A model generated the notes under the pieces. That model did no database searches, had not been told where the DNA came from, and saw only the letters and a list, made by a program, of their open reading frames with translations. Shown in pieces: positions 16,260-30,010 of a stretch of DNA of 64,000 bases. The position numbers and the translations under genes were made by a program. Origin of the DNA: a virus; the IMG/VR virus record IMGVR_UViG_3300047388_000163, positions 1-64,000 of that record; one strand, given 5' to 3'. Position 1 is the stretch's first letter; every line of letters starts with the position of its first letter.

Positions 16260-16269
16260 ATTTCCCCAG

Positions 16270-16297
16270 CCCCCGCCAAATTGCGGGGGTTTTTCTT
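16270..16297 (+). terminator. Rho-independent terminator
   Basis: Perfect 7-bp stem CCCCCGC (16270-16276) with GCGGGGG (16283-16289), a 6-nt loop and a TTTTTCTT tract directly after. It lies 11 nt beyond the last stop of the packaging operon. Confidence 0.85.
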
Positions 16298-17538: not shown

Positions 17539-18453
17539 ATGCCCATTGCCTTGGCCAACATTCGATCTGAGCTTCTGCCGGGCCTCTTTGACGTAAGAGG
17601 CTCCTATGACATGATTCCGAGACAATGGGACAAAGTATTCAAAACCCATAAGTCCGCGATGGCGGTTGAGCGCTCAACGCAGATGGCGTTCGTTGCGCTG
17701 CCGTTCCTGAAAGACGAAGGTGCCGCAACTCAATTCGACAACAATGCCGGTGAGCGCTTTACATGGGCATTCGTGCATATCGAGGTCGCTCTCGGCTACG
17801 CGATCACGAGAAAAGCCATCGACGACAATCTGTACAAGGCGCAGTTCAATCCGACCAATCTCAAGCTTCAGGAAGCGTTTGCGCAGTTCAAGGAAATCCA
17901 GGCCGCGAACGTCCTGAACCTCGGCAACGTCTACAACACGTCGATCATCGGTGACGGCGTTGCTCTGTTCTCCACGGCGCATCCGTTCGACAACGGCACA
18001 TGGGCCAATACTTCGTCCACGCCGAAGTCGCTGAACGAAGCCGCCCTCCTTGCCGACATGACCAACGTGCGAACCCAGTTCGTCAATGAACGCGGCCTGC
18101 GCATCATGGCCCGAGCTCGCCGACTGATCGTACCGCCGAATCTTGAGCAAGTCGCAATTCGTCTGATGAAGACCGAGCTGCGCCCCGGCACCGCAGACAA
18201 CGATGTCAACGCTATCCTTACGCTATCTGGCGGCCTCCCCGAGGGTCACCTCGTGATGGACTTCTTCACCAGTAACTTCGCTTGGTTCCTCACGACCAAC
18301 ATCGAGGGACTGATCCATATGCTTCGCATTCCGTATGAGTCGGACATGTGGATCGATAATATCACGGATAATTTACTTGTGAAAGCGTATGAAAGGTATA
18401 GCTTCGGCTATAACGATCCGCGTTGCGCCTGGGCAGAGTTCGCTACTTCCTGA
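17539..18453 (+). CDS. Major capsid protein (HK97-fold, Mu gpT-like)
   Basis: 304 residues. Features typical of Mu-gpT-like major heads: helical N-terminus (LANIRSELLPGLFDVRGSY), VALPFLKDEGAATQFDNNAGE (E-loop region), GYAITRKAIDDNLY (spine helix), DGVALFSTAHPF, PRTL-like RLIVPPNLE, and GLPEGHLVMDFFTSN in the P-domain. Strong AAGGAAAG site before the ATG. No N-terminal delta domain is obvious, consistent with a separate scaffold gene. Its codon bias appears higher in GC at third positions than flanking genes, as expected for the most expressed gene. Confidence 0.85.
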   Translation: MPIALANIRSELLPGLFDVRGSYDMIPRQWDKVFKTHKSAMAVERSTQMAFVALPFLKDEGAATQFDNNAGERFTWAFVHIEVALGYAITRKAIDDNLYKAQFNPTNLKLQEAFAQFKEIQAANVLNLGNVYNTSIIGDGVALFSTAHPFDNGTWANTSSTPKSLNEAALLADMTNVRTQFVNERGLRIMARARRLIVPPNLEQVAIRLMKTELRPGTADNDVNAILTLSGGLPEGHLVMDFFTSNFAWFLTTNIEGLIHMLRIPYESDMWIDNITDNLLVKAYERYSFGYNDPRCAWAEFATS

Positions 18454-18465
18454 TATTCTTTTGAT

Positions 18466-18494
18466 TTGACTTTCCCCGTTTTCCAAAGTATAAG
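18466..18494 (+). promoter_or_regulatory. Promoter of the homing endonuclease gene
   Basis: TTGACT (18466-18471), 17-nt spacer, TATAAG (18489-18494). The predicted start site, about 18501, lies at the end of the loop of the inverted repeat 18475-18513. A transcript from here would therefore lack the left arm of the hairpin. Confidence 0.65.
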
Positions 18495-18513
18495 TATATC
18501 ATTGGAAAACGGG
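18475..18513 (+). promoter_or_regulatory. 12-bp inverted repeat overlapping promoter and ribosome-binding site
   Basis: Perfect repeat CCCGTTTTCCAA (18475-18486) and TTGGAAAACGGG (18502-18513), with a 15-nt loop that contains the -10 box. The likely Shine-Dalgarno GGGAG (18511-18515) starts inside the right arm, 8 nt before the ATG at 18524. RNA read through from the capsid gene can form the hairpin and hide the site. RNA initiated at about 18501 cannot. No U-tract follows, so it is not a standard terminator. Confidence 0.7.
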
Positions 18514-18523
18514 AGAACGAGAG

Positions 18524-19666
18524 ATGAGCCGAGTGAACAAACTGACCCATGAACGCCTTGTTGAATTGCTGGACTTTGATCCAGCAACTGGCGTTTTCAC
18601 GTGGCTAAAAACTACATCAAATCGAGTGAAGGTTGGGAGCCGTGCTGGCGTATTTCACAAGCCATCAGGCGGTCGGTATATCGCCATTGACGGCGAAAAA
18701 TATATGGCGCACTTGCTGGCATGGTTTTACGTCCATAGCGTTTTTTCTTCGATGGATGTTCGACCGATTGACGGCAACTTCGATAATTGTGCCATCGTAA
18801 ACCTGAAAGAGGTTCATCGCTCTGAGTTGCAACATGCGCGCGGCATGAACCGTAACAATACCAGCGGGTTTCAGGGAGTTAGCGCGGCTCCGCATGACAA
18901 GTGGCAAGCCAAGATCACTTGGAAGACGAAGCAGGTTTCTCTTGGAATGAACTTCGCTAGGGCCGAAGATGCCGCAGATGTGGTCAAGGATGCATATTCT
19001 CGTCTGGGCACTGCTGGAAACGCTTCGGAAGAGGAATTAGTTTTCGAGGCGCTCAGACTTGAAAAACGCCAGCGCGCAGCTTGGGCTCATCTTCTTCGCA
19101 ACGATGATCCATTCGTTTGGAAAACTTTTGAAGATTTTTGTCGCGATGTGACCGATGTTCTTGATCATCGCTACTCCATGGCTCCTATTGACGCCGCTAA
19201 GCCTATGTCCAAAGACAATTACAAATGGGCGTCTGAAGGACATGCCAAAACTGGAACGCCTGAAGGGTTTCTTCAATATCGGAGAGAAAATCAAAAGGCC
19301 AATTCGGATCACATGCGAAGCCGACGTTTCAAGAAGGAGTACGGCATCGATTTTGCGGAATACCAGAGAATGCTTCTTGAACAAAAAGGCGTTTGCGCGA
19401 TATGCGATAGGCCTGAGACCAAGATTGAAAACGGTTCTATTCGCATGCTCTCTGTGGACCATAATCATACGACTGGTGCAGTGCGTGGTCTGCTGTGCGG
19501 TAACTGCAATATGGCCATCGGCTATGCATGCGATGATGTGACAGTGCTTCAGAAGGCCATTGGATATTTGCGCAAGCATGCTGGCGTTGATACGGTGCTT
19601 CAGTTCGAACCAACTCGCCCCGATCGTGACTGGCTTCATGTCGCTACTCTTGGATTTGGAACCTAG
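18524..19666 (+). CDS. Homing-type endonuclease: HNH_3-like, AP2 and endonuclease VII domains fused
   Basis: 380 residues in three parts. Residues about 10-100 follow the HNH_3 pattern but where active members have DH before the IxGN turn, this protein reads VRPIDGN (residues 79-85), so the catalytic His is lost. Residues about 112-160 form an AP2-like DNA-binding domain (SGFQGVS...DKWQAKI). The C-terminus holds an endonuclease VII/HNH zinc fold with CAIC, VDHNHTTGAVRGLLC and GNC, which looks intact. It is inserted between the major capsid gene and the next structural gene, with its own promoter. It probably spreads by cutting related phage lacking the insertion. Confidence 0.85.
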   Translation: MSRVNKLTHERLVELLDFDPATGVFTWLKTTSNRVKVGSRAGVFHKPSGGRYIAIDGEKYMAHLLAWFYVHSVFSSMDVRPIDGNFDNCAIVNLKEVHRSELQHARGMNRNNTSGFQGVSAAPHDKWQAKITWKTKQVSLGMNFARAEDAADVVKDAYSRLGTAGNASEEELVFEALRLEKRQRAAWAHLLRNDDPFVWKTFEDFCRDVTDVLDHRYSMAPIDAAKPMSKDNYKWASEGHAKTGTPEGFLQYRRENQKANSDHMRSRRFKKEYGIDFAEYQRMLLEQKGVCAICDRPETKIENGSIRMLSVDHNHTTGAVRGLLCGNCNMAIGYACDDVTVLQKAIGYLRKHAGVDTVLQFEPTRPDRDWLHVATLGFGT

Positions 19667-29500: not shown

Positions 29501-30010
29501 GTGGCAGCAAAGACAAAACTAACGGCCCCAGACGTTACGCTGGAAAGATTGAGATCGGTCCTGGATTATGATCCAGAGACCGGGATTTTCCGGTGGGGGT
29601 CAGGTGTCAATAAATTCGTTAAATGGAAGATCGGCAGTTTGGCTGGAACCGATAGCAATGGGTATCTTTCTATCGTTATAGACTATCGAATGTATATGGC
29701 CCATCGTCTTGCCTGGTTTTATGTCCATGGTGTTTGACCGGATCAGATTGATCACCGTGACATGAATAGGAGAAACAATGCGATTGCCAATTTGAGACTG
29801 GCAACATTTTCTCAAAATAATGCTAATAGATGTGTACGAGGAGATTGTTCTTCGGGTTACAAAGGTGTGCGTTTTCATAAACCATCAAAGCGATGGCAGG
29901 CACGGTTAGCTCAGCGCCACTTGGGTCTATTTAGCTCACCTGAAGAAGCCCATTCGGCTTATATTGCTGCGGCTATAGAAAAGTATGGCCAATATGCGAA
30001 TGCGGGGTAG
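29501..30010 (+). pseudogene. HNH_3/AP2 homing endonuclease interrupted by TGA
   Basis: Opens at GTG 29501. The first 78 residues follow HNH_3 (VLDYDPETGIFRW, AHRLAWFYVHGV), then TGA at 29735-29737. The same frame continues without further stops with PDQIDHRDMNRRNNAIANLR, an intact DH-N motif, then AP2 (GYKGVRFHKPSKRWQARL), to TAG 30008-30010. In the family this position is usually Trp (HGVWP), one base from TGA (TGG to TGA). As written it should give only an inactive fragment unless the TGA is read through. TGA-C is a leaky context. Confidence 0.8.

Follow-up and report, generated by a model that had tools for sequence, protein, structure and literature searches.

A promoter-in-hairpin leader as a candidate transcript-origin switch for a homing-type endonuclease gene behind a phage capsid gene

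Results

A homing-type endonuclease gene behind the capsid gene

If a homing-type endonuclease gene sits directly behind the major capsid gene of a phage, from which transcript is it translated? This question is raised by a 64-kb window (the whole stretch of viral DNA analysed here, part of a 67-kb virus record) in which a free-standing, intergenic endonuclease gene lies between the major capsid gene and the next phage gene (Table 1). An annotated major capsid protein (MW202675) matches the capsid protein at 60% identity over 99%. The initial annotation is borne out in placing the endonuclease beside a capsid gene and in a phage outside the T-even group; its designation of the gene as homing-type is likewise upheld by the PHROG 99 and endonuclease VII domains and by the existence, at a single site, of both occupied and empty alleles. 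The capsid stop codon and the endonuclease start are 70 nt apart, and since a consensus promoter/terminator scan detected no terminator-like site between the two genes, transcriptional read-through from one into the other is expected. Upstream of the head-gene block lies a strong terminator-like hairpin (16268-16291) with a T-run after it.

The endonuclease combines an N-terminal HNH (PHROG 99) region with a C-terminal endonuclease VII domain (residues 267-351; Pfam Endonuclease_7, E 4e-22). The N-terminal HNH unit (18701-18829) apparently lacks the catalytic histidine (DVRPIDGN vs VDH in short relatives) and scores 15.5 bits with Pfam HNH_3, under the cut-off of 24.8; the C-terminal domain (19322-19576) retains DHNH and two CxxC pairs. 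Judging from these motifs, one nuclease domain appears to have been replaced by the other. A second endonuclease gene in the window (29501-30010) is broken by an in-frame TGA; its GTG start follows the upstream gene's stop codon by 4 nt, and it carries no hairpin.

Table 1 Features of the capsid-endonuclease region (window coordinates)
Feature	Position	Strand	Remarks
Major capsid protein gene	17539..18453	+	PHROG 371 major head protein, E 6e-9; source of read-through mRNA
Predicted -35 element, TTGACT	18466..18471	+	Just 5' of left arm; best promoter score in leader
Left arm (anti-SD arm), CCCGTTTTCCAA	18475..18486	+	In promoter spacer; read-through RNA only
Predicted -10 element, TATAAG	18489..18494	+	Within hairpin loop
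Predicted transcription start (A)	18501..18501	+	Placed 7 nt past -10; beyond left arm
Right arm, TTGGAAAACGGG	18502..18513	+	3' end is GGG of SD
Shine-Dalgarno (SD), GGGAG	18511..18515	+	8 nt 5' of ATG 18524
Homing-type endonuclease, 380 aa	18524..19666	+	PHROG 99, E 2e-40; PHROG 2914, E 5e-34
Next phage gene	19670..20935	+	Directly after capsid gene in many empty relatives, gap about 15-45 nt

A predicted promoter and a hairpin share the leader

The leader holds the 12-bp perfect inverted repeat exactly where it had been annotated, with arms complementary at 12 of 12 positions around a 15-nt loop. It is the sole perfect inverted repeat of its kind (arms ≥12, loop 3-30) in the window, and each of five dinucleotide-shuffled windows contained none. 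The promoter, TTGACT-17 nt-TATAAG, is also as annotated: it spans the left arm and has its -10 element between the arms. Its score is higher than in 99% of shuffled versions of this leader (p = 0.01), with the proviso that the consensus used is that of an E. coli-like sigma factor, which may not be the host's own. A simple consensus scan overlooked this promoter, because the scanner requires a T at the last -10 position; nor did it call a terminator at the hairpin. An Rfam search gave no match; looking for a phage RNA polymerase of the single-subunit type brought no hit, not even among the controls, and therefore carries no information. Only the GGG of GGGAG falls inside the perfect right arm, and the SD therefore sits at the foot of the stem without being fully buried.

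We then compared the two transcripts by computed folding. The read-through RNA (18455-18560) folds at -25.5 kcal/mol (z -2.9) and the hairpin alone at -17.4 kcal/mol (z -6.0), vs -3.7 kcal/mol (z +1.3) for RNA starting at 18501. Opening the SD core (GGAG) costs 9.6 kcal/mol in the long RNA and 1.1 kcal/mol in the RNA from ~18501, against 4.0 ± 2.4 kcal/mol in 200 shuffles of the window leader and a mean of 2.7 kcal/mol for other window genes with an SD core of ≥4 nt. The identical method, applied to T4 I-TevI as a positive control, returned 11.6 kcal/mol for the long and 0.9 kcal/mol for the short RNA. The RNA predicted from the internal promoter has a 5' leader of ~23 nt with an open SD. These calculations agree with the initial annotation, according to which read-through RNA sequesters GGGAG and RNA without the left arm leaves it accessible.

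We propose, with a probability of roughly 80%, that the leader acts as a transcript-origin switch. RNA reading through from the capsid gene would contain both arms and form the stem, from which the endonuclease should be poorly translated because the stem holds the SD. RNA begun at ~18501 would lack the left arm, since this arm sits between the -35 and -10 elements of the internal promoter; its SD would be free and the gene translated. The endonuclease would thereby be insulated from the abundant capsid message, its level and time of expression being set by its own promoter. We infer that the internal promoter would fire and that the hairpin would block ribosomes. Limited nuclease dosage would be the presumable benefit.

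Twenty-seven leaders at the capsid-downstream site

Because the initial annotation rested on one locus, the leaders of other endonuclease genes at the same site constitute an independent test. We analysed 27 leaders from the capsid-downstream site of related phages, the window and 26 others. About 17 share a common layout, in which a -35 is followed by an anti-SD arm, the loop contains the -10 and the right arm contains the SD (the window, L001, L002, L004, L008, L014, L020, L024, L027, L035, L039, L041, L045, L048, L079, L082 and L087, with L043 borderline), 6 hide the SD with a weak or absent internal promoter (L009, L010, L011, L023, L040 and L083) and 3 do not match the layout (L017, L058 and L170); these class counts are judgements from the folds, and for L020 and L024 the choice of promoter was made partly by eye. 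In L024, L035 and L043 the stem is visible and the free-energy scores are poor. L009, L011, L023, L040 and L083 belong to another endonuclease type, with a tight SD hairpin and a short loop.

Across all 27 leaders, taken with unassisted choices and not all phylogenetically independent (though their stems are unalignable), the mean SD opening cost is 7.1 vs 3.4 kcal/mol in shuffles (z 10.6), with 17 individually at p ≤ 0.05. The predicted short RNAs have a mean opening cost of 2.5 kcal/mol. Next genes at empty sites average 5.1, a modest difference from the leaders (p = 0.02). The promoters are enriched as well: TTGAC is present in 14 of the 27 leaders (3.2 expected), and in 22 the stretch from the -35 to the predicted start includes a pairing partner for the SD (12.9 expected). 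When the top-scoring promoter is taken from the 150 nt preceding the start codon, the distance from -35 to start codon is 55-66 nt in 20 leaders vs 2.5 expected, the interval having been chosen post hoc with its centre fixed by the window locus (58).

This promoter signal bears on whether the hairpin might instead keep the endonuclease permanently weak, or coupled to capsid translation, with a non-functional internal promoter. The tight SD hairpins of L009, L011, L023, L040 and L083, with their weak or missing internal promoters, would fit such an arrangement, but the signal is strong across the set (combined z 6.3), the window promoter ranks with the best, and the 70 nt between the capsid stop and the start are too far for ordinary coupling; we therefore consider it very improbable.

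The stems themselves are unrelated in sequence between leaders (for example CCTCC/GGAGG in L001, CTCCTGAT/ATCAGGAG in L002, GTCCTCC/GGAGGAC in L004, TTCTCCCCG/CGGGGAGAA in L045 and CTCTCTCC/GGAGAGAG in L082), and even endonucleases 55-67% identical have unrelated arms. When left halves were swapped among 22 loci, the mean opening cost dropped from 7.0 (cognate) to 3.9 kcal/mol, and the cognate mean was reached in none of 20,000 left-half permutations, which establishes that arm complementarity is locus-specific. Since this swap test amounts to covariation without alignable sequence, it is our strongest evidence that pairing is selected. The I-TevI-like anatomy as a whole is apparently under selection, because ~17 of the 27 leaders share one layout built from unrelated sequences.

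The same data speak to a reading in which the inverted repeat serves as an operator in the DNA: a dimeric repressor, perhaps the endonuclease itself, would bind both arms and block the internal promoter, RNA folding being incidental. The repeat does overlap the promoter, and I-TevI is known to autorepress at its late promoter (PMC2988022). An operator is nevertheless hard to reconcile with the unrelated arms of similar endonucleases, the regular position of the SD inside the right arm and the variable stem length and loop; moreover, 38 of the 355 stem pairs are G-U, which would be mismatches in DNA and thus favour a function in RNA. We judge it to have little chance of being correct.

A homing hot spot

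Relatives of the capsid gene retrieved from IMG/VR yielded 77 distinct sites, of which 30 hold an endonuclease or a remnant (28 with intact-looking genes) and 47 are empty. On the capsid tree, occupancy switches at least 19 times, or 25 times counting endonuclease type; such patchy occupancy marks the slot as a hot spot for homing endonucleases of several types. A scan of genome contigs added two distant relatives only. In empty relatives the gap between the capsid gene and the next gene, mostly 15-45 nt, has no such leader, and the leader thus arrives together with the gene.

Stems between phage genes are often processed. That the hairpin is mainly an RNA-processing site (e.g. for RNase III or RNase E) or an mRNA stabiliser, its SD overlap being a by-product, is likewise very improbable despite the precedent of T4 segB and segG messages cut by RNase E (PMC2988022), because empty sites lack the hairpin though the capsid and next genes are still co-linear, the stem includes specifically the endonuclease SD, not an arbitrary stretch between the genes, and the promoter is linked to the stem at a fixed distance.

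Two loci, L044 (3153-3258) and L016 (1434-1492), have no endonuclease, yet a leader-like promoter region is present; L044 also retains an endonuclease 3' tail resembling L020 and L087. By sequence, both look like relics of lost endonuclease genes. L001, L024 and L048 encode differing endonuclease types with near-identical final 25-30 nt ahead of the next gene (e.g. gccacgccaaactttgagggctcat), a similarity that suggests recombination between occupants.

We also considered whether the hairpin is a general trait of the endonuclease superfamily and rejected this, as ten endonuclease relatives from known phages show no significant SD sequestration. Nine of the ten have a recognisable SD, opening costs are 0.7-4.0, and many overlap the upstream gene. 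The promoter-in-hairpin layout was also absent from the window remnant (29501) and from four endonucleases at other sites. As far as these sequences go, the device belongs to the capsid-downstream site and not to the superfamily.

Discussion

The preferred reading, a switch set by transcript origin, leaves the question of when it operates. Major capsid genes are normally expressed late and their messages are abundant. The initial annotation had invoked the logic of I-TevI, including the silencing of early read-through RNA. The first part is borne out by the predicted hiding and freeing of the SD, by the ~17 leaders and by the swap test; the early timing is not, as the source of read-through is the capsid gene, normally a late gene, and the promoter is sigma-70-like. 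In T4 I-TevI, read-through RNA is early/middle and the gene's own promoter is late (PMC2988022, PMC3014915). Given that read-through RNA here comes from capsid mRNA, the timing may be the reverse. The late capsid message and the sigma-70-like promoter together favour insulation with possible early expression, and the switch more likely curbs over-production of the nuclease from the capsid message than delays the nuclease.

A broader proposition, which we put forward tentatively and at somewhat less than even odds, is that several endonuclease subfamilies each acquired promoter-in-hairpin leaders of independent sequence because such leaders are needed behind the most abundant late message, so that the device provides dosage insulation tied to the site, with timing opposite to that of I-TevI. 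Regardless, some 17 leaders with unrelated stems at one site in non-T-even phages would turn the T4 case into a comparative system. They suggest that the persistence of a selfish gene can depend on its not being expressed from a neighbour's message, a dependence made testable by the coexistence of occupied, empty and relic alleles.

Among T-even phages, I-TevI and mobE are known to be controlled by an SD hairpin, and such control has been suggested for I-TevII, I-TevIII and segB (PMC2988022, PMC3014915); a limited search of the open literature found no report of it outside this group. As in T4 I-TevI, I-TevII and I-TevIII, the SD of the window gene lies in a stem of the read-through RNA, and RNA from the internal promoter would lack the 5' arm (PMC2988022, PMC3014915); the computed SD opening costs are similar to those of I-TevI (9.6/1.1 vs 11.6/0.9). 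I-TevI, however, is a GIY-YIG enzyme encoded by an intron of an early/middle gene and served by a T4 late promoter, whereas the window gene is free-standing, of the HNH/endonuclease VII kind, located behind a capsid gene and preceded by a sigma-70-like promoter; it falls outside the I-TevI family in the strict sense (GIY-YIG, group I intron, T4 late promoter).

Closer in arrangement are mobE of Aeromonas phage Aeh1 and T4 segB, likewise free-standing endonucleases with an SD-sequestering hairpin, mobE sharing the HNH class with the window gene (PMC2988022, PMC3014915). Unlike the window gene, they reside in T-even phages, at other genes and sites and with T4-type promoters; the segB message, like that of segG, undergoes RNase E processing (PMC2988022). 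For neither mobE nor segB does the literature searched report a series of equivalents that share a hot spot yet are unrelated in sequence. The mRNAs of T4 genes e, soc and 49 also carry inhibitory structure at the initiation region, the masked transcripts of gene e being the longer, early ones (PMC3014915). These genes belong to the phage itself and are timed late, whereas the leader described here belongs to a mobile gene. The logic of the switch is thus that of the T-even cases; the phage group, the type of promoter, the type of nuclease, the insertion site and, probably, the timing differ.
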